A stretch of 64,000 nucleotides of DNA from a virus, in IMG/VR virus record IMGVR_UViG_3300042261_001152, positions 1 through 64,000 of that record. The stretch is one strand, 5' to 3'. Position 1 is the first letter of the stretch; every line of letters begins with the position of its first letter. Both the position numbers and the translations under genes were made by a program. The notes under the pieces were generated by a model. The model saw only the letters and a list, made by a program, of their open reading frames with translations, did no database searches and was not told where the DNA came from. Below, in pieces: positions 20,584-29,882 of the stretch.

Positions 20584-20612
20584 ATTATAAATACTATGGT
20601 ACATTCTGTCAA
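20584..20612 (-). promoter_or_regulatory. Early-type promoter of DNA polymerase gene
   Basis: TTGACA (20612-20607), 17-base spacer, TATAAT (20589-20584) reading left toward gp43. Its -10 box overlaps the plus-strand late box at 20586-20593. Confidence 0.7.
20586..20593 (+). promoter_or_regulatory. T4-type late promoter of the curli island
   Basis: Exact TATAAATA on the plus strand. A start about six bases beyond it would give a transcript beginning near 20599, with the first usable ATG at 20623. It is the only recognisable promoter found for the plus-strand operon and overlaps the opposite -10 box. Confidence 0.65.
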
Positions 20613-20622
20613 TAGGTCTATC

Positions 20623-20901
20623 ATGGATATTTTTAAACTCATAGCCGAAGTAGGATTTCCCATAGCAGCTGCCTGTGCTGGTGGGTATTTTGTGTTTCTT
20701 ACACTTAAATTTATCTTAGCTGGCGTCATGGGTTCTATCAAAGGTCTTACAGGTATTATAACGGCCCTGGACAACAGAGTCAAGACCATGAACCATGACA
20801 TTATCAGAATCGATACTTTAGTTAGTAATGCTCTAGGCGTCAAACCCGATGTGGATCGTATCGCACGTGCGGATGGTAAAAATGACGCTCGCAAAGATTA
20901 A
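20623..20901 (+). CDS. Single-TM protein with coiled-coil tail, paralogue A
   Basis: About 92 residues from ATG 20623 (MDIFKLIAEVGFPIAAACAG). The ATG at 20596 would lie before the predicted late transcript start. One membrane helix (about 12-33) then a heptad-like segment with ALDNRVKTMNHDIIRID and a charged end. It is paralogous to the protein at 22087-22362 (shared MDI...GFPI...GGY and RV..(M/L)..D.IR..). Topology would suit a small holin or spanin-type inner-membrane protein; this is inference. Confidence 0.6.
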   Translation: MDIFKLIAEVGFPIAAACAGGYFVFLTLKFILAGVMGSIKGLTGIITALDNRVKTMNHDIIRIDTLVSNALGVKPDVDRIARADGKNDARKD

Positions 20902-21190
20902 CTTTATTATATTAGGTTTCATAAGCTGTGTCAATCTTTTTGCCGCAGAAAACGTTAAAAAACTACACTATAATTTTAATCCAAACGTAACCATTTGGAT
21001 AACCAATCAACCCTGTACAGATGTTAAATTTCGTCGTACATATCCTTGGGCCGCTGAAGCGGTTCGAAGTGATGGTGAAGTTTTACAGGGCTGTTTCAAT
21101 GGTGAACAAAATACAGTAACCATACAATGGTTGGGTGGTGATACCAGTAAATTTCCCGCTGATTATTTTTTAGGGAACAAGGATAATTAA
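20882..21190 (+). CDS. Small secreted protein with signal peptide
   Basis: About 102 residues from ATG 20882 (MTLAKINFIILGFISCVNLF), with a Sec signal cleaved after about LFA-A. Mature part about 82 residues, with two Cys (NQPCTD and LQGCFN) that could form a disulfide, and beta-strand character. Overlaps paralogue A by 20 bases. Periplasmic location expected. No family recognised; position suggests a partner of the lipase or of curli export. Confidence 0.55.
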   Translation: MTLAKINFIILGFISCVNLFAAENVKKLHYNFNPNVTIWITNQPCTDVKFRRTYPWAAEAVRSDGEVLQGCFNGEQNTVTIQWLGGDTSKFPADYFLGNKDN

Positions 21191-21973
21191 ATGACTCCTA
21201 TCAAACAGACAAAATTTACCGAACAGGCCTATCTGTTCGCTCGCCTGGCTAAACTGGCATATTCCAACCCAGACCAGGCCGAAGAGCCATTTGCTCAGCT
21301 GGGCTTTAATGCTCACTTTTTTGATGTCAATGGCAGTCAGGCCTATTTGCTGACCAATGCTCATGATCTCATAGTTGTATGTCGTGGCACACAGCCCACG
21401 GAATTCAAGGACATAGCAGCCGATCTGGATGCCATCATGGTGCCTAGCTCAACTGGCATAGGTCATGTACATAGAGGATTTAAAACATCAGTGGATAACA
21501 TCTGGCCTGGCCTGGTGGACAAACTTAGGGAATACGGTAAGACTCGCACCGTCTGGTGTACAGGTCATAGTCTGGGAGCAGCCATGGCAACATTATTGGC
21601 TTATAGACTGCAAAGATCCGAGGATTGTCCTAACCCACAGGCTTTGTTTACCTTTGGTAGTCCACGCGTAGGTAATAAAAAATACGTGACTCAGATTGAA
21701 AGCATTGGACTATTGCATTTTAGATTTGTCAACAACGCTGACATAGTTGCCCGTGTACCTGTATGGCCCTATCGTCATTTTGGTGGCATGTACTACATGA
21801 ACCACTTTGGTAATCTCAGAGCACCAACTGCCTGGCAGGTAACCAAGGACGTCTGGAGAGGTTTCCTGGTAGGACTAAAACGCAGGGAAATTAACTTCTT
21901 TAGCAATCATAGCATTGATCGCTATGAAAACAACCTATTAAAATGGAATCTGGGCGTAGAAAATCCCCAGTAA
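21191..21973 (+). CDS. Class 3 lipase-like alpha/beta hydrolase
   Basis: 260 residues. Nucleophile elbow TGHSLGAA with Ser127, then Asp184 in VNNADIVARVP and His240 in SNHSIDRY: a complete Ser-Asp-His triad in Lipase_3 (triacylglycerol lipase/phospholipase) order. VVCRGTQP supplies the oxyanion-hole region. No signal peptide, so probably cytoplasmic or dependent on a membrane partner. Follows the secreted protein directly and precedes the second TM paralogue. Membrane phospholipid attack during lysis or remodelling for amyloid export are possible roles. Confidence 0.8.
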   Translation: MTPIKQTKFTEQAYLFARLAKLAYSNPDQAEEPFAQLGFNAHFFDVNGSQAYLLTNAHDLIVVCRGTQPTEFKDIAADLDAIMVPSSTGIGHVHRGFKTSVDNIWPGLVDKLREYGKTRTVWCTGHSLGAAMATLLAYRLQRSEDCPNPQALFTFGSPRVGNKKYVTQIESIGLLHFRFVNNADIVARVPVWPYRHFGGMYYMNHFGNLRAPTAWQVTKDVWRGFLVGLKRREINFFSNHSIDRYENNLLKWNLGVENPQ

Positions 21974-21974
21974 T

Positions 21975-22109
21975 ATGTCATTTAAAGAATACTTTTTAGC
22001 CGTTGTGGGCACCATACTCATAGCTCTTTATTGCAGCTGGGTTGATGAACATGACGTAACTTTAACAACACCCGAGATCGCAGTTCATGGACATAGTAGC
22101 ACTAATTAA
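21975..22109 (+). CDS. Small single-TM protein
   Basis: 44 residues, MSFKEYFLAVVGTILIALYC then SWVDEHDVTLTTPEIAVHGH. One membrane helix (about 6-21), short outside tail. Starts two bases after the lipase stop and overlaps the next gene by 23 bases. Function unknown; holin- or regulator-like by size. Confidence 0.5.
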   Translation: MSFKEYFLAVVGTILIALYCSWVDEHDVTLTTPEIAVHGHSSTN

Positions 22110-22362
22110 CAAGTATGGATTTCCCATAGTAGCCGCAGTTGGTGGTGGCTACATGGTTTATTATGTCTGGGTTTGGGCCACCAAAGAAGTAAAGCCAGTT
22201 CTTAGTGAAGCAAATACAGTATTAATTGCTTTGATTGATCGTGTTAGAATGTTAGACAATGATTTAATTCGTTTAAACCAAAAGATTAACATAGTAACCA
22301 TGCTCAAGGATCTGGAAAATGAAAAAGTTCGTAAACCTACTAATCGCCCTGACCGGGATTAG
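22087..22362 (+). CDS. Single-TM protein with coiled-coil tail, paralogue B
   Basis: 91 residues. MDIVALINKYGFPIVAAVGG and a membrane helix (about 10-32) followed by a heptad segment (LIALIDRVRMLDNDLIRLNQ). Clearly related to the protein at 20623-20901, so the pair arose by duplication and now flanks the lipase. Overlaps csgF by 44 bases. Role unknown. Confidence 0.6.
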   Translation: MDIVALINKYGFPIVAAVGGGYMVYYVWVWATKEVKPVLSEANTVLIALIDRVRMLDNDLIRLNQKINIVTMLKDLENEKVRKPTNRPDRD

Positions 22363-22765
22363 TACGGCTCTAGCAGCACCGCTTCCTGATTATACATTTA
22401 AGAGTCCTGCCTTCAATGGCAATGGATATAGTAGTCACGTACTGACCATTGAAAACCAGGAACATGCTCGCAAAGAAAGCATCAAAAAAGAAATACAGGC
22501 CGCACTGGACAAAGCCAAAAATGATGCCAACAACACCAACATAGCCAAATTTCTAAACAATCTAGAGAGTCGTATCTATGCTCAGATATCACAGAATGTA
22601 GCCACGGCCATGTTTGCCGAGGGCGGTAGTAATTCTGGTACATTGAACTTCGAAGGCAACATCATATACTGGACCAAGAGTTCAACAGAGATTACACTTA
22701 ATGTAACCGATTACCTGGGCAGTACAACCTCTATTAACATACCACTGGGAAGTTTTCAATTCTAA
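22319..22765 (+). CDS. csgF: Curli assembly protein CsgF-like
   Basis: 148 residues. Sec signal (MKKFVNLLIALTGISTALAA), then the CsgF signature YTFKSPAFNGNGYSSHVL, a helix FLNNLESRIYAQISQNVATA and a C-terminal beta domain ending LNVTDYLGSTTSINIPLGSF. In curli systems CsgF binds the CsgG pore from the cell surface and couples nucleation to the outer membrane. Immediately precedes csgG, as in bacterial curli operons. Ribosome site AAGGA lies before the ATG. Confidence 0.85.
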   Translation: MKKFVNLLIALTGISTALAAPLPDYTFKSPAFNGNGYSSHVLTIENQEHARKESIKKEIQAALDKAKNDANNTNIAKFLNNLESRIYAQISQNVATAMFAEGGSNSGTLNFEGNIIYWTKSSTEITLNVTDYLGSTTSINIPLGSFQF

Positions 22766-22766
22766 A

Positions 22767-23567
22767 ATGCGTACACTAATTTTATTGGTTATGCTACTGG
22801 GGTTAACTGGCTGTGCAACTACTCGCATGGTCACAGGACCTGATAAACCTCAAGAAGTAAAAAGTATCCTTCAGAAAGAATTTGATACTTTACCACCACC
22901 AACCGGTAAGCCTATAACAGTGGCTGTTTATACTTTTGCAGACAAAACCGGTCAGCGACGACCAGCTGCTAACTATGCTAATCTTAGTTCAGCAGTCACA
23001 CAGGGTGCGGATGCATTTTTAATCAAGGCCCTGCAAGATGTAGGTAAGGGTCGCTGGTTTGAAGTAGTTGAACGCGTAGGCATAGATAGCCTGACCAAAG
23101 AGCGTCAATTAATACGTCAGATGCGCGAAGCCTATGAAGGCGACAAAGCTAAACAGCTCGGTCCTATGGCATTTGCAGGCATTATACTTGAAGGTGGTAT
23201 CACAGGTTATGATAGCAGTATCAAGAGTGGTGGCAGTGCTTATAGAATGTTGGGCATAGGACCACAGACTCAGTACAGCGAAGACATAGTCACTGTAAGT
23301 TTACGAGCAGTAAGTGTTAATTCTGGCAAGGTGCTGGCTGCAGTAAACATACAGAAAACCATTTATAGCGCCAGTGATTCATTGGCCATATTAAAGTTTG
23401 TGAAAGATGGAACTCAGGCATTTGAGCTGGAGTCTGGACTAACCATCAATGAGCCAGGCACATTGGCAGTTAAAGCTGCCGTTGAGTCAGCAGTCGTGGA
23501 ATTAATCAAAGAGGGTAGCAAGAAAGGTATCTGGGAATTCGCCTATGAACCCTTGCAACCACAATAA
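22767..23567 (+). CDS. csgG: Curli secretion channel lipoprotein CsgG
   Basis: 266 residues (E. coli 277). Lipobox LGLTGC gives an acylated Cys16. Core motifs include VAVYTFADKTGQRRP, the membrane-hairpin and constriction region ANYANLSSAVTQGADAFLI, WFEVVERVGIDSLTKERQLI, and ILEGGITGYDSSIKSGG. CsgG forms a nonameric outer-membrane pore that exports unfolded curlin subunits. No CsgE gate is seen here. It is the component that most firmly identifies the island as type VIII secretion. Confidence 0.93.
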   Translation: MRTLILLVMLLGLTGCATTRMVTGPDKPQEVKSILQKEFDTLPPPTGKPITVAVYTFADKTGQRRPAANYANLSSAVTQGADAFLIKALQDVGKGRWFEVVERVGIDSLTKERQLIRQMREAYEGDKAKQLGPMAFAGIILEGGITGYDSSIKSGGSAYRMLGIGPQTQYSEDIVTVSLRAVSVNSGKVLAAVNIQKTIYSASDSLAILKFVKDGTQAFELESGLTINEPGTLAVKAAVESAVVELIKEGSKKGIWEFAYEPLQPQ

Positions 23568-23576
23568 GGAGTAAAA

Positions 23577-24362
23577 ATGATAAAATCATTTAAACTTTTT
23601 GTTATGGTTTTATTATTAAGCATCAGTGCATATGCTGCAGATAACAGCATCTACGTTGATCAAAGCGGTGATGACAGTACCATTGACATAACACAAACTG
23701 GTGCCGGCAACGTTGTACGAGGCATACAGGGCGTGGGCACTGGTAATACAACACCTGCCAAGATCTATGGTAACAGCAATGGCATTGATATCAGACAAAT
23801 AGGTAGTACCAATACCTTAAATCTGGGCATCAATACAACTGTTTCAACTGGTAGAGCCTATGGTATAGATCTAACCTATTATGTTACAGGTAATAGTGGT
23901 ACTGCTACCATCAATAGTAACAACGCTGGTACTGGAACCTCAGGCAGTAATTTCATAGATGTTCGTCAGACCGGCAACAGTGCTAACCTAAACCTAAACA
24001 TACTGGGTAGTAAAAATGACTTTACAGCTGTTACTTCAGGTGGTGCCAGCAATAGCATAACTGCTACCATCAATGCCGATGAAACTGTGACCAATCTCAG
24101 TCTCACTGGTGGTGCCAACAATAGCTTTACTGGTACATTGAGCAGCAACAAAGGTCACGTTGATATTACCACAGTAGGTGCCAGCAACAGCATCAACCTA
24201 ACACAAACCGGTACTGCTGGAACCAATGGTCATGCATTTACCTATAGTGCCACAGGTTCTAACAATTCCATGACAGCTACACAATCTGGAACTATTGATA
24301 CAACTGTCAATGTAACCAGTACTGGTAGTGGCAATACATGGAACATAACTACTGGAAATTAA
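23577..24362 (+). CDS. Curlin-repeat amyloid subunit (CsgA/CsgB-like)
   Basis: 261 residues. Sec signal ending ISAYA-A, then about ten imperfect curlin-type repeats of the form hydrophobic-x-hydrophobic-x-Gln-x-Gly-x-x-Asn, for example IYVDQSGDDSTIDITQTGAG, IDIRQIGSTNTLNL and HVDITTVGASNSINLTQTG. Gly, Asn, Ser and Thr dominate and no Cys is seen in the mature chain. It has the strongest ribosome site of the island (AATAAGGAG), fitting a subunit needed in bulk. Longer than E. coli CsgA (151). Predicted to be exported by CsgG and to form amyloid fibres. Confidence 0.88.
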   Translation: MIKSFKLFVMVLLLSISAYAADNSIYVDQSGDDSTIDITQTGAGNVVRGIQGVGTGNTTPAKIYGNSNGIDIRQIGSTNTLNLGINTTVSTGRAYGIDLTYYVTGNSGTATINSNNAGTGTSGSNFIDVRQTGNSANLNLNILGSKNDFTAVTSGGASNSITATINADETVTNLSLTGGANNSFTGTLSSNKGHVDITTVGASNSINLTQTGTAGTNGHAFTYSATGSNNSMTATQSGTIDTTVNVTSTGSGNTWNITTGN

Positions 24363-25453
24363 TCTTATTACTGCTATGGTCGCAAATAGCCTTTGCGGCC
24401 GTGGGCAGTATTACTGAACTAAGCAACGCACCGCCCAGCATAACACGCAAAGGCAGCAATGTAGCCGGGGCCAAGGGAACAGGTGTAGAAATGTCTGACG
24501 TAGTTAAAACTACTGCAGGCAAGGCCGGCATAACCTTTGCAGATGATACCCGAGTTCAGGTCAATGAAAACAGTAAGTTAGTCATAGATGATTTTGTCTA
24601 TGACCCCAACAGCAAAAAAGGTGGCAAACTTGCCATGAATGTTGCTCTGGGTACGGTTCGCTATGCCTCTGGAGCAGTCGCTCACAACAATCCCGATAGT
24701 GTAAAAATTAATACTCCCACGGCAACCATAGCAGTACGCGGAACAGACTTTACAGCTACAGTAGACGAACTGGGTCGCAGCACCATAATCTTATTGCCCA
24801 GCTGTCCCCATGATTACAAAGATGTCATATTAGATTGCAAGACCGGTAAGATCGAAGTCATAACTGACGAGGGCAAGGTCATCATGGATAAACCTTTTCA
24901 GGCTACCAGAGTGGATAGCAGAGAAACCAAACCATTTAAACCTGTTATATTAAATCTCGATGCTGATCAGATCAGCAATATATTAATACTAAGTCCGCCC
25001 AAAGAACTCAGGGACAGTGACGAGGACAAACACAAAAAGAAGTTTGAAGCCAAGGGTGCATTAGATGTAGACTTTCTGGCCGAGAATAAACTCATTAATG
25101 TTCTGGAAAAAGAAAATGCTGAAACCTATAAGAATAAACTGGATCGTAATTTCCTGGACAATGACTTTTTAGCCAACATACTGGACATCATAAATGCTCA
25201 ATTACAGGCACAGTTAGATCTGCTGGGTAAAACTAAAACTGGATTGTTGCCCGATTACATACCAACCTCGGGTGTCATAGTCGAAGTAGACGATCTACAG
25301 GTTACACTGTGTCGTGAAGGTGGGGGTGACATACAGTGCATAACAACTCCAAAAAATCAAAACTCAACCATAACACAGATACAGGGACCTGTAGAAATTA
25401 AAAATAGGATCAACAATGGTGGCAACACGATTATTAACGCTACTCAGAATTAG
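24338..25453 (+). CDS. Secreted FecR-domain protein
   Basis: 371 residues. Signal peptide (WKLILLLLWSQIAFA). Residues about 20-180 carry the FecR domain: KGTGVEMSDVVKTTAGKAGI, FADDTRVQVNENSKLVID and INTPTATIAVRGTDFTATVD. FecR domains of this stand-alone periplasmic kind often neighbour CHASE2 cyclase genes in bacteria. The rest is helical and charged, ending in a short beta segment. Three or more Cys (SCPHDY, DCKTGK, LCREG, QCITT) may pair. Overlaps its neighbours by 25 and 38 bases. A sensor or assembly-scaffold role is inference. Confidence 0.82.
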   Translation: MEHNYWKLILLLLWSQIAFAAVGSITELSNAPPSITRKGSNVAGAKGTGVEMSDVVKTTAGKAGITFADDTRVQVNENSKLVIDDFVYDPNSKKGGKLAMNVALGTVRYASGAVAHNNPDSVKINTPTATIAVRGTDFTATVDELGRSTIILLPSCPHDYKDVILDCKTGKIEVITDEGKVIMDKPFQATRVDSRETKPFKPVILNLDADQISNILILSPPKELRDSDEDKHKKKFEAKGALDVDFLAENKLINVLEKENAETYKNKLDRNFLDNDFLANILDIINAQLQAQLDLLGKTKTGLLPDYIPTSGVIVEVDDLQVTLCREGGGDIQCITTPKNQNSTITQIQGPVEIKNRINNGGNTIINATQN

Positions 25454-26936
25454 TTTATTGTTGCTTTGTTTAAATGCTAGGGCTGATACTCTAGGCACGG
25501 GTTTTGAAAGCAACAGCATAGACGGTTGGACTGTATCTGGAACCCTGGCTGCTACTAAGAATACCTGGAGTCCCAATGGTGCTGGTGTGGCATTAACAAC
25601 TGGTGTTACCAATTATAGCCCCGGTGGTGGTAAAACCTGGACCATAGCTCCCTATGGCAGCTACATGGCATCTATTCAACCAGGATCAAACTCTGTAACT
25701 TTTGATAGTGCCATAGGTAGTCTAGGACTGACAACCACTGAGGGAACAGCCATAAAAAACTTTTTAACCTATCAGGCCAACAATGGCGGTGGTGGTAATC
25801 CTAATCCTACTAATGCTGCCTGGATGAAAAAATCATTTGCTCTTACGGCTGGAACTACCTATACCATGGCCTGGCAATATCTCAGCACTGACTATACACC
25901 CTGGAATGATGGTAGCATGGTGTCTCTGGTCAATGACAGCAATGCCAACATTACACCAACACTCAATGGATCCAATCAACGCTATGGCCTATTGGGCTTT
26001 ACCAATCCGGGAACTGGTAACTATGCCACAGGTAGTTATGGCGCCACAGGCTGGCAAAGCATACAGTTTACTGTGCCGCAGTCTGGTAATTATACTTTAG
26101 GATTTACAAGCTTTAATTTAGGTGACCAATCTTTAAGCCCTATTTTATTTGTAGATGTGATTATTGGTTCAACAAGTCTTAACGGTGCAACATTTACACC
26201 CATACAGCCCAATGCAGGTTCAACTGCACCACCGCCACCGGCTCCGGGTCCTACCTATAGCTCTGGCATAACTGGTGCTCAGACTACATCTAAAAATGCC
26301 AAGACTGCTGTACGTCAGGCTCAACATGGCAATGAAATCTATGTCGAACAGGCCGGCAGTAACAATACATTTACTCTGCGTCAGGGTGGTTATAGCACGG
26401 GCAAGGCTCGCATAGAATTATATTCAACTGGTGATAGTAATACCTTAAATTTAAATCAGGCTAAAAACACCGATGGGTCTTCACCTGGAGCTGATAGCAA
26501 CAATCACTATTTGTATCTGTATCTAAATGGTAATAGCAACAACATTACCACCAAGCAGGTAGATGGAACTACTGCAGGCGTTGGTCATTTCATGGAAAGC
26601 ACCATATCTGGTAATAGCAACAATGTCACTAACATACAGCAAGGGTCAGGTGCCAAGATACTATTTCAGAGCATTTCTGGCAATAACAATACAGTATCAA
26701 CCACACAGAGTGATACAGGACAGGATTATTTGGATTTAAAATTGACCGGATCTGGTCATAATGTAACTACTGTGCAGTCGGGAGCTGGCAATCATGCTGC
26801 CACCATAGACCTAACCAACTCAGGTGGAAGCAGCACCCTAAACATGACGCAGAGCGGCAGTACCGCTCAGACGTATTCCATACAGCAGAGCTGCACAACG
26901 GCAGCTGGCTGCTCTACTACCATAACCCAACCCTAG
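25416..26936 (+). CDS. Two-domain curlin-repeat protein (nucleator/adhesin-like)
   Basis: 506 residues. Signal peptide (RISLLLLCLNARA). Residues about 25-255 are a beta-sandwich-like region (TGFESNSIDGWTVSG, GNYTLGFTSFNLGDQSLSPI) resembling carbohydrate-binding or surface-display modules. A Pro-rich linker (APPPPAPGPT, about 270) leads to about eight curlin repeats (IYVEQAGSNNTFTLRQGG, ISGNSNNVTNIQQGSG) to the end, with a final Cys pair CTTAAGC. The arrangement suggests a minor fibre subunit that nucleates curlin and presents a binding head. Ends exactly against the convergent gene. Confidence 0.83.
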   Translation: MVATRLLTLLRISLLLLCLNARADTLGTGFESNSIDGWTVSGTLAATKNTWSPNGAGVALTTGVTNYSPGGGKTWTIAPYGSYMASIQPGSNSVTFDSAIGSLGLTTTEGTAIKNFLTYQANNGGGGNPNPTNAAWMKKSFALTAGTTYTMAWQYLSTDYTPWNDGSMVSLVNDSNANITPTLNGSNQRYGLLGFTNPGTGNYATGSYGATGWQSIQFTVPQSGNYTLGFTSFNLGDQSLSPILFVDVIIGSTSLNGATFTPIQPNAGSTAPPPPAPGPTYSSGITGAQTTSKNAKTAVRQAQHGNEIYVEQAGSNNTFTLRQGGYSTGKARIELYSTGDSNTLNLNQAKNTDGSSPGADSNNHYLYLYLNGNSNNITTKQVDGTTAGVGHFMESTISGNSNNVTNIQQGSGAKILFQSISGNNNTVSTTQSDTGQDYLDLKLTGSGHNVTTVQSGAGNHAATIDLTNSGGSSTLNMTQSGSTAQTYSIQQSCTTAAGCSTTITQP

Positions 26937-27014: not shown

Positions 27015-29039
27015 TTATTTGCTTGTTGCACGATATACACCATCCCAGTTAGCTGGTAGGCCTTCATCAAAACGTTCCATCATGTTCTTGTAGTAATCCT
27101 TAATGGTTACTTCATCATTATTTATCATTTTCTCAGCCCAAGTACGAGCCTTGGTCCAGTTACCACGATAATATTCTTTTAGATATTCATTATGCATATA
27201 GGCTATGGTATGACCAACAGTAAATATCTTGACGCCTTCGGTTTTACCTTTGACTGCTATGGTATCTAATTCTACAACTGAGATTTCATCCTTGACCAGC
27301 TCTGCGGTTCTGGCGCCCAGTACTACTTTGACACCATAGGGTTTGCTCTGACCTTCGAGTCTTGATGCCAAGTTAACCCCATCGCCGAGGCAAGTATAGT
27401 CGAAACGCTGTGTAGAGCCCATATTACCCACAACAACGTCAGCAGTGTTGATGCCCAGCCCCATGCCGAACGCCGGGATACCTTCCTGAGCAATTTCCGC
27501 ATTAAAGCCTTCCAGATCATTTAACATCTCCAGGGCGCATTGAACTGCGTGTAGTGCATGTGCTTTATCATCCAAGGGTGCATTCCAGAATGCCATCTGA
27601 GCATCACCTATGTACTTGTCCAATGTGCCCTCGTATTCTAGTATGCGTTTGGTCATGGCCGTCATGTAGCGGTTCATGATTTTTGTCAGTCCCTGTACGT
27701 CTTTGCCATAGTGTTCAGAGATTGTGGTGAATCCACGAACATCAGTAAACATGATACTCAACTCTCGGGTCTCGCCACCCAGCTTTAATAACTCTGGATT
27801 CTTTTGCAGCTCTTCTACCATCTTGGGGCTTAGGTAGGTGCCAAACTGTTTCTTTATCTGAAGCTTGGCATTGAGCTCAGTAAGGAATTTAACTGTATAA
27901 CTGTGGATATAAACGAGGGCAAGAGCAACAATAGGAAAACTAACATCGATAAGCCAAAGCTCTTTTGCATAACTAAACTGAGAATATGCATAGATACCAT
28001 ACAAAATACCAATGAAAGGAATAAAGCCATAGGTCCACCTTGTTAAGAAAATAGCAATAATGCCCAATAATAATACACCCAGTATCTCGGCACCATCGGC
28101 CCAGTCAGGGCGCTGAATATTTATATTGTTGCTTAATGTGCCTATGACAGCGGCCTGCAGGTCCTGAGGATATACAGCACCCAGAGCCGTTGGTACTGGA
28201 TTGCTTAGTCCAGCTGCGGTTAGTCCCACAATGACTATGCCTTTGTTAAAATCCTTGGGCAACTTTACTGCACTGACTGCAGTTGATCGTTGTGAGAGAT
28301 CAACCCATACACGACCCAGACTATCGGTGTTGATGACATTGAATGACGGAACACGCATTTTCTCTACGCCATTGGCATTTAACTTGACCTGAAAGGTGCT
28401 GTCGCCAGCTAATAGTCTAAGTACTTCTAGGCTCACACTGGGATAAAGATTGCCATTTGAACCAACAAATAGCGGAAGACGACGATTGACACCATCAATC
28501 TCTGGCAGTGTATTGGCTATGCCTACACCAGCAGCGGCATTTTCTAATTCGGGAATGTTGGCAATCAGACCAGGATAGTTAATGATGCGATCTAGATTTT
28601 CTGAACCAATGACAGCTGAACCTGGACGACGTGCCTGATTCTTGTTGGTCTGGGCTGGCATGTTGGTCAGCACCACGGGCTTGTCTTTTAGAGTTGAAGC
28701 CAGAGCAGCATCGCCACCCAGCCTATCCTTTTCGGGCATCATGACGTTCCAGACTACCAGCCCGGCATTGTGAGCATATAACTCACCTATGAGGTTGGCA
28801 TACTGATCGCGTTTAAATGGCCATTGACCATAGCGATCTAAAGTAGCCTCATCAATGTTTACCGTATAGATGTTGTTCTGAGTAGCAGCCTTATTGGTAA
28901 TTAATGTGTCAAAGTATCTGAGCCTAACAGACTCCACGAATGCAGGATCAGTGACTCTGATGCCTATGATCAGACTCAGGGTTAGTAAAGCCAACCAAGG
29001 GCTTAGTAGTATTTTAATGAGTGTCTTTTTCAATTGCAT
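27015..29039 (-). CDS. CHASE2-domain membrane adenylate cyclase
   Basis: 674 residues. TM1 (about 10-28), extracytoplasmic CHASE2 domain (about 30-310, with RYFDTLITNK and YGQWPFKRDQYANLI), three closing TM helices (about 316-382), a linker with KKQFGTYLSPKMVEEL and a class III cyclase domain (about 425-610). Catalytic set complete: metal Asp433 (FTDVRGF) and Asp479 (YIGDAQM), adenine-specifying Lys475 with Asp547, and Asn556/Arg560 (GDGVNLASR). Predicted to make cAMP at the inner membrane in response to a periplasmic signal. Convergent with the FecR/curli island. Confidence 0.92.
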   Translation of the reverse strand: MQLKKTLIKILLSPWLALLTLSLIIGIRVTDPAFVESVRLRYFDTLITNKAATQNNIYTVNIDEATLDRYGQWPFKRDQYANLIGELYAHNAGLVVWNVMMPEKDRLGGDAALASTLKDKPVVLTNMPAQTNKNQARRPGSAVIGSENLDRIINYPGLIANIPELENAAAGVGIANTLPEIDGVNRRLPLFVGSNGNLYPSVSLEVLRLLAGDSTFQVKLNANGVEKMRVPSFNVINTDSLGRVWVDLSQRSTAVSAVKLPKDFNKGIVIVGLTAAGLSNPVPTALGAVYPQDLQAAVIGTLSNNINIQRPDWADGAEILGVLLLGIIAIFLTRWTYGFIPFIGILYGIYAYSQFSYAKELWLIDVSFPIVALALVYIHSYTVKFLTELNAKLQIKKQFGTYLSPKMVEELQKNPELLKLGGETRELSIMFTDVRGFTTISEHYGKDVQGLTKIMNRYMTAMTKRILEYEGTLDKYIGDAQMAFWNAPLDDKAHALHAVQCALEMLNDLEGFNAEIAQEGIPAFGMGLGINTADVVVGNMGSTQRFDYTCLGDGVNLASRLEGQSKPYGVKVVLGARTAELVKDEISVVELDTIAVKGKTEGVKIFTVGHTIAYMHNEYLKEYYRGNWTKARTWAEKMINNDEVTIKDYYKNMMERFDEGLPANWDGVYRATSK

Positions 29040-29184: not shown

Positions 29185-29345
29185 AGTAGTGCTGGATCCC
29201 TTCTAAATATATATAAGCCCATTAAATGGCCTGCAAAGAAAGTAATAAAGCCTATTTTACTATAGGCAAAATTGGAACTTAGTAATAGAGCACTACCTAA
29301 AAAGGTAATGCTCATGATCCATTTATACTGCTGATCTCTAGTCAA
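29124..29345 (-). CDS. Small polytopic membrane protein
   Basis: 73 residues with two or three hydrophobic segments (WIMSITFLGSALLLSSNFAY, IGFITFFAGHLMGLYIF, LLWHNIIFSFIDLWGIYRWW). Overlaps the MazG-like gene by eight bases. The closing FSFIDLWGIYRWW resembles ends of small bacterial transporter-like proteins. Function unknown. Confidence 0.5.
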   Translation of the reverse strand: MTRDQQYKWIMSITFLGSALLLSSNFAYSKIGFITFFAGHLMGLYIFRRDPALLWHNIIFSFIDLWGIYRWWF

Positions 29346-29592
29346 TGAGACTGCTCCATTTACGTAATTTTTCTCGTTTGGCCATCTGGGCCTGTGTAAT
29401 GTGTACGTTGTCTATGATATTCATCTGTTGCAGTAGTTCTATCATGCAGCGTAGATCACCAATTTCTTTTTCTAACTGCTCACGATTAGTAGTCCCATCA
29501 CCTGCGGTAACATAGGGTAGGTCTATGCCAAAGCGTATGATCTTACTGATCTGCTGTATAACCTCAGCACATTCTTCAGCAGTTATGATCAG
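29338..29592 (-). CDS. MazG-like NTP pyrophosphohydrolase, start uncertain
   Basis: About 85 residues. LIITAEECAEVIQQISKIIR gives the helix with the metal-binding EExxE-type Glu residues of MazG/all-alpha NTP-PPases, followed by LEKEIGDLRCMIELL with the second Glu/Asp set. Likely hydrolyses non-canonical or regulatory nucleotides. No ATG or GTG lies between the tRNA-Leu gene and this conserved start; candidates are CTG at 29592 or codons inside the tRNA. Start therefore uncertain. Confidence 0.6.
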   Translation of the reverse strand: MIITAEECAEVIQQISKIIRFGIDLPYVTAGDGTTNREQLEKEIGDLRCMIELLQQMNIIDNVHITQAQMAKREKLRKWSSLID

Positions 29593-29606
29593 AGCTTCTA
29601 GTGTTT

Positions 29607-29691
29607 TGGTGCCCAAGAGAGGACTCGAACCTCCATGACTTGCGTCGCCAGTACCTGAAACTGGTGCGTCTACCAATTTCGCCACCTGGGC
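29607..29691 (-). tRNA. tRNA-Leu (CAG)
   Basis: 85 bases with a seven-pair acceptor GCCCAGG/CTTGGGC (one G-T), anticodon loop TTCAGGT reading CAG, a long variable arm, T-loop TTCGAGT and encoded CCA. Confidence 0.93.
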
Positions 29692-29699
29692 CTGTTTCA

Positions 29700-29882
29700 T
29701 TACGCCTTGCCTGCAGCTGTTTTGGCTTCTTGAATTTCTTTGCGACGAGCGCGAACCAATTTACCAATCTCACCTAGTGCTTTACGAGCACGAGCTGCAG
29801 ACGCCTTAACGCCTTTGGTTTCAAACTTTTCATTCTCAGCTGTATAGATAGCTACCTGTTCTAAAATCTGTTCATGTGTCAT
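29700..29882 (-). CDS. Histone H1-like (Hc1-type) basic protein
   Basis: 60 residues. Central KGVKASAARARKALGEIGKL matches the Lys/Ala-rich helix of bacterial Hc1-type histone-like proteins (KGNKAA.TRARKAL.EI pattern), followed by VRARRKEIQEAKTAAGKA. Probably binds DNA without sequence preference and may help compact phage or host DNA. Lies just upstream of tRNA-Leu on the transcript, with an AGGAG site. Confidence 0.65.
   Translation of the reverse strand: MTHEQILEQVAIYTAENEKFETKGVKASAARARKALGEIGKLVRARRKEIQEAKTAAGKA

Follow-up and report, generated by a model that had tools for sequence, protein, structure and literature searches.

A curli-type module with candidate exchangeable adhesins in a T4-like phage

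The curli block and its secretion core

The stretch analysed here, referred to below as the window, comprises 64,000 bases of a 68,617-base IMG/VR virus record (IMGVR_UViG_3300042261_001152) that carries T4-like replication genes. Positions 20623-26936 form a plus-strand block set in minus-strand surroundings, with a strand switch at both ends, and encode, in order, a membrane protein (TMa), a small secreted protein, a lipase, a second membrane protein (TMb), CsgF, CsgG, a curlin-repeat protein (curA), a FecR-domain protein and a second curlin-repeat protein (curB). From comparison with about 140 phage loci (labelled L001 onward) we favour, with moderate confidence, the interpretation that this block is a late-expressed curli module, which would build a surface amyloid bearing exchangeable adhesins for the capture of cells or surfaces.

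A first-pass annotation, made from the DNA alone, had read the block as a curli-type operon in a T4-like phage, with CsgF, a lipobox-bearing CsgG, two curlin-repeat proteins and a FecR-domain protein. The csg module does stand together with T4-like replication genes, and all these proteins are found where they had been placed, by Pfam, phmmer and, for curB, AlphaFold. The profile matches for csgF (22319-22765; Pfam CsgF, E=6.5e-15) and csgG (22767-23567; Pfam CsgG, E=6.8e-46) are significant. CsgG, the predicted outer-membrane secretion channel lipoprotein, has the lipobox LTGC and matches the E. coli CsgG structures in the PDB (phmmer, E=5e-45), while CsgF has the motif LTIENQE in common with the CsgF of a Hyphomonas operon discussed below. 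The putative secreted subunit curA (23577-24362) just passes the curated cut-off of the Curlin_rpt profile (E=2.2e-4), but it contains four copies of a curlin-type motif against 0.01 in shuffled sequences, and 18 of 23 aligned curA homologues match the profile (best 2.5e-10). Its Shine-Dalgarno sequence, TAAGGAG, is the strongest of the block, as had been noticed at first pass. The block thus contains the elements of type VIII (curli) secretion, namely the CsgG channel lipoprotein, CsgF and a secreted curlin-repeat substrate, and throughout the loci the secretion and curlin genes stay together. No Pfam match to CsgE, CsgC or CsgD was obtained among the ten block proteins searched, which bears out the earlier failure to see CsgE and CsgD. 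Since all three are also reported absent from phage modules, as in Alphaproteobacteria (PMC9599517), we do not treat them as defining outside Gammaproteobacteria.

The strand switches at both ends of the block could point to an assembly chimera or to bacterial contamination, and a chimera had been named at first pass as the finding that would overturn the annotation. At the left boundary it is contradicted: the junction between the DNA polymerase gene and TMa is seen again in contigs (L001-L008) of other metagenomes. The right boundary appears intact from L126 only, in which the cyclase is likewise convergent. The module is also present in complete cultured phage genomes, and its gene order is shared with Melnitz, HTVC008M and related loci. 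The recurrent junction and the cultured genomes together imply that these are phage genes, and an artefactual origin seems to us hardly credible.

The channel gene varies among the loci. In L045 (9995-11245) and L102 (17611-18855) CsgG has a long C-terminal extension ending in an apparent SH3b-type domain; it is also extended in L043 and in L096 (IMGVR_UViG_3300017917_003143), a jumbo-size viral contig of 343,632 bases that has the module. L055 and L125 have about 2 kb of extra sequence between csgF and csgG. A nucleotide search with csgFG found no match in named phages, and a scan of genome assemblies with a single CsgG sequence found nothing, whereas a CsgG alignment used as query did find loci. 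One unannotated 1,499-base record, OR851715.1 (Salmonella phage S.Kent 1-2-1), gives a 40.6% match to CsgG and may be a misfiled bacterial fragment.

Timing and the membrane pair

Directly ahead of TMa lies TATAAATA (20586-20593, plus strand), the T4 late-promoter core and the sole plus-strand copy in the window. Over the whole window the motif shows no enrichment (8 matches against 4.5 expected). Among the loci, which are related and hence not independent events, 43 of 97 distinct cases have it between -120 and +40 relative to TMa, where 0.81 would be expected, and 12 of 100 have it close to csgF; the control rate over all open reading frames of at least 100 residues is 3.4%. Its position follows the gene layout: it stands ahead of csgF in 10 of the 28 loci in which csgF leads its own unit, compared with 1 of the 47 in which TMa leads. 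Such a dependence is hard to obtain by chance. The motif appears to precede whichever gene heads each transcription unit, and expression therefore looks late. Late-promoter prediction had been reported as unsuccessful for pelagimyophage genomes (PMC7029224).

This timing bears on the proposal that the amyloid and the membrane pair shield the cell surface, keeping competing phages from adsorbing or delivering their DNA. Superinfection exclusion is usually needed early in infection, so that a late-promoter motif is not what would be expected of it, and the masking of receptors requires no exchangeable head domains such as those described below for curB. Surface fibres could nevertheless mask receptors, TMa and TMb are small membrane proteins, and the idea has been put forward before (PMC9599517); we consider it improbable.

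The proteins TMa (20623-20901) and TMb (22087-22362) are paralogues, both belonging to phrog_18771 (TMb, 9.9e-30). Each has one predicted membrane helix that continues into a further helical part, modelled for TMa as a long helix. For TMa the start at 20623 is preferred, the alternative at 20596 lying too close to the promoter. A search with TMa only gave 80 loci, none of them selected for csgG. When all phage loci are pooled, csg genes stand near TMa in 97, TMa lying upstream and co-directional in 56, convergent beyond the 3' end of the block in 39 and divergent in 2; it is found with the cyclase alone in 12 loci, and in 6 with neither, and in each of these six the sequence stops no more than 0.8 kb from TMa at one side. 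Among 46 whole contigs searched, csgG is present in 37, and eight of the nine without it are shorter than 25 kb. The ninth, L123 (51.8 kb), has TMa and TMb with no csg genes in the 10 kb downstream, and its contig breaks off 273 bases upstream of TMa, on the side occupied by csgF in the divergent layout. The pair thus goes with the module, in one of three orientations, in every locus where enough flanking sequence is available. Among named phages, TMa, TMb, csgG and a full-length cyclase share one distribution, being carried by the same set of six phage genomes. A related DNA polymerase is found in 2,396 records of that collection, and this rules out TMa as a general T4-like protein.

TMa is also the most conserved protein of the module. 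Measured against the window over 7-18 sampled loci per gene, median identities are 87% for TMa, 69% for TMb, 61% for the cyclase, 52% for csgG, 45% for csgF, 44% for fecR, 43% for the DNA polymerase and 38% for curA. The proportion of nonsynonymous differences (pN) for TMa is 0.11 at a synonymous proportion (pS) of 0.81, compared with pN of 0.21-0.44 for the other genes. Because synonymous sites are near saturation in all the genes, recent gene exchange is ruled out as the cause, and the conservation of TMa reflects purifying selection. No kinase domain is matched in Pfam by 47 aligned TMa and TMb relatives, so that a histidine-kinase identity finds no support there. Foldseek with TMa returned nothing, and no TMa was found in 385 alphaproteobacterial genomes, a set without a positive control.

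The membrane pair and the timing make lysis or egress the main rival explanation. On this account, suggested for Melnitz, the CsgG pore and holin-like TMa and TMb, here with the lipase, would permeabilise the envelope late in infection, the curlins being secondary. Besides the late-promoter motif, it draws on the phage specificity of TMa and TMb, which are the most conserved parts, and on a weak resemblance of TMb-type proteins to a holin family (phrog_4898), matched by 23 of 25 TMb homologues (best 2.5e-5). The match of the window's own TMb is likewise weak and spans only about 22 N-terminal residues. A class 3 lipase (21191-21973; Pfam Lipase_3, 5.8e-27) sits between TMa and TMb in the window's lineage; it is lineage-specific and present in 12 loci. 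Set against this, curA, csgF and fecR are kept throughout, the curB head is diversifying although a pore has no need of it, and TMa and csgG are missing from nearly all named T4-like phages, implying that they are no general lysis set. We judge lysis rather unlikely as the primary function. In the curli interpretation that we prefer, TMa and TMb would be a paralogous inner-membrane pair, added by the phage to an operon of bacterial origin, that probably ties the module to the close of the infection cycle.

The small secreted protein (20849-21190), with a signal peptide read from the sequence and an uncertain start, is also lineage-specific. It has seven relatives among the loci, but no Pfam or PHROG match and no relatives in named phages. 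Its gene follows TMa in some lineages and lies between curA and fecR in others (L025, 11562-11852). It may be an accessory of the module.

Variable curB heads, FecR and the cyclase

The last gene of the block, curB (25416-26936), encodes a variable N-terminal domain (residues ~22-280) and a conserved curlin-repeat C-terminal domain (~305-506). The Pfam curlin match is weak in the window (E=0.017), whereas the homologue in HTVC008M reaches 5e-8; in the AlphaFold model of the window's protein, residues 305-506 form a regular strand ladder, with a predicted local distance difference test score (pLDDT) mostly of 60-93. Most curB proteins of the window's lineage have 396-507 residues, of which the last ~225 form one conserved curlin-repeat family. 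The N-terminal parts, in contrast, belong to five or more groups with no detectable similarity to one another, and all of them meet the curlin domain at the same P-x-YSSGIT-like junction. Close relatives differ in this way: L056 and L028 are 99% identical in csgG, 96% in fecR and 83% in the curB C-terminal domain, yet their heads are unrelated, and the heads of the window and L008 differ despite 86% identity in csgG and fecR. By these comparisons curB is a chimera of a conserved curlin domain and exchangeable N-terminal domains.

What these heads might bind is suggested by their relatives. PA14 domains are matched in the heads of L008 (6e-10) and L024 (2e-11), at 39.5 and 44.2 bits against a curated cut-off of 24; the L024 head also matches GLEYA, just under the cut-off. 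HTVC008M gp018, annotated as hypothetical, combines PA14 (2.7e-6) with curlin repeats (5e-8). PA14 and GLEYA are domains known from yeast adhesins; the curB heads probably bind ligands, presumably sugars. Elsewhere the slot between fecR and the cyclase is occupied by an F5/8C protein (L044) or by autotransporters (L015 and L093). PA14, adhesin and lectin all go unmentioned in PMC9599517, and in the literature searched PA14 and curlin appear together only in a paper on amyloid-like adhesin bonds. Foldseek matches of the window's curB N-terminal domain (GOLD, CBM4, CBM35, collagen-binding) come from a low-confidence model and were not used.

The FecR protein (24338-25453) consists of a signal peptide, a FecR domain (Pfam, E=1.5e-10) and a curlin-like C-terminal strand. 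A strand-plus-Q motif resembling the curlin repeat is found at the end of 58 of 83 homologues, compared with a background of 2.7% per 16-residue segment. The cytoplasmic anti-sigma domain, single transmembrane segment and linked FecI of a canonical FecR sensor are not seen: the protein has no anti-sigma domain, and no block protein matches FecI. Without an anti-sigma domain, a role as iron regulator was set aside as unlikely.

A CHASE2-adenylate/guanylate cyclase (27015-29039, minus strand; Pfam CHASE2, 4.8e-36; Guanylate_cyc, 7.3e-19) converges on the block. It retains the class III catalytic motifs FTDVRGFT, KYIGD and GDGVNLASRL, and its orientation is inverted compared with 76 of 77 related loci. 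This gene, the lipase and the identity of the first genes as TMa and TMb had not been listed in the first-pass annotation. In other loci a metallophosphoesterase-like gene recurs between curB and the cyclase (L012, 14025-14810; L011, 14146-14889; L027, 6414-7160; and others). Beyond the cyclase, the 5' end of a MazG-like open reading frame (29338-29700) overlaps a tRNA-Leu gene (29607-29691), implying that its first residues are tRNA-derived and that its true start lies downstream.

Proposed function and known systems

Why should a phage carry a curli module? The question dates from 2020. From gene content, conservation, domain swapping, the late-promoter motif and the co-occurrence of TMa and TMb, all seen by sequence, we infer secretion, amyloid formation, ligand binding, FecR-cyclase signalling and a benefit to the phage. 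CsgG and CsgF would form an outer-membrane channel exporting the curlin-repeat subunits to a surface amyloid built mainly of curA. In the lineage of the window, the fibre would be capped or decorated by curB, whose swappable domain, of PA14 or other kinds, probably binds a ligand. FecR would be secreted or periplasmic, its curlin-like tail docking on the fibre or nucleating it, and it may report to the CHASE2-cyclase to give a cyclic-nucleotide signal. The infected cell would then bear sticky fibres whose target differs between close relatives. The phage would most likely benefit through capture, the fibres fastening dying cells and their debris or progeny to fresh hosts or to particles.

We favour the display of a binding head on fibres because the variable part lies on an exported subunit, the whole module is retained and expression looks late. 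Several points weigh against it. No clumping was seen in Melnitz-infected cells (PMC9004378), and no fibre, secretion or binding has been demonstrated for phage curli in the literature covered. Many other T4-like relatives have a mini curB of ~90 residues without a head domain, so that not all lineages would display a head. In the window itself the head matches no Pfam family and is modelled at pLDDT ~25-50; its ligand-binding nature is therefore argued from its relatives. The membrane pair could indicate lysis instead, and CsgE is missing from the block proteins. The lack of this gate would suit a further idea, raised in PMC7029224 and PMC9599517, that CsgG admits larger molecules into a nutrient-starved host. 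Such a pore would leave CsgF, the two curlins, the domain swapping of curB and the late-promoter motif unexplained, and we think it very improbable. The first-pass suggestion of surface amyloid for aggregation or capture is favoured by the swappable domains, while the gene set as then drawn was incomplete.

More tentatively, the amyloid may be a fast-evolving adhesin scaffold that sits outside the virion, its constant curlin domain carrying exchangeable ligand-binding heads. It would be made late in infection, under the control of the phage-specific and almost unchanging inner-membrane pair. If so, it would be a second, cell-mounted receptor-binding system that widens the capture radius of the phage. 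Swappable heads, late-promoter motifs and a module-bound membrane pair make the purpose directly testable, partly in the cultured phages HTVC008M and Melnitz.

The closest bacterial counterpart is in Hyphomonas sp. TMED17 (L143, 9477-15500), where a 705-kb contig has csgF-csgG-curlin-fecR-CHASE2-cyclase amid ordinary chromosomal genes, matching the window in all five families and in their order. Among 80 csgG loci taken from genome assemblies this is the only such operon. It differs from the window in having one curlin gene only, ahead of fecR, and no TMa or TMb, neither of which was found in that genome. At least one curli operon in bacteria thus includes FecR and the cyclase, which corrects the view that such operons lack them, and by this comparison the membrane pair looks like the phage's addition. 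In the remaining genome bins with TMa, it lies on phage-looking contigs. Five module-bearing contigs binned into bacterial assemblies of the GTDB collection (L142, L145, L148, L177 and L200, in bins of Pirellulales, Rhodobacteraceae, Pelagibacter, Flavobacteriales and Sphingobacteriales) are probably phage.

The core module itself is not new, and the first-pass statement that some aquatic myoviruses have curli genes was correct (PMC7029224, PMC9599517, PMC9004378). csgF and csgG were first noted in pelagimyophages in 2020 (PMC7029224). In 2022 the order HK-csgF-csgG-csgA/B-fecR-csgA/B-cyclase, HK denoting histidine kinase, was described for HTVC023P-type podophages and, by re-searching, for pelagimyophages (PMC9599517), and the module was reported in cultured Melnitz with a proposed lysis role (PMC9004378). 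The 'histidine kinase' genes are, by position, probably TMa and TMb, which would make this a difference of naming. What is new here is the TMa/TMb co-occurrence, the swapping of curB heads, the placement of the late-promoter motif, the FecR tail and the Hyphomonas operon. The pelagiphage module (L065, L066; annotated Melnitz and HTVC008M) has the window's order csgF-csgG-curlin-fecR-curlin-cyclase, and proteins of the isolates are ~31-60% identical to those of the window (csgG 46-48%). The window differs from it: a lipase and a small secreted protein separate TMa from TMb, the cyclase strand is inverted, and curB is large, with an unrelated N-terminal domain.

Compared with E. coli curli (csgBAC-csgDEFG), the block has homologous CsgG and CsgF and curlin-type repeats in common; CsgD, CsgE and CsgC were not found in it, and FecR, the cyclase, the membrane pair and the head-curlin chimera are additional. 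A last parallel is functional, with no homology claimed beyond the PA14 and GLEYA matches in phage relatives: yeast PA14/GLEYA adhesins with amyloid-like cell-cell bonds (PMC8398270) likewise combine an adhesin head with aggregating cross-beta bonds on the cell surface.

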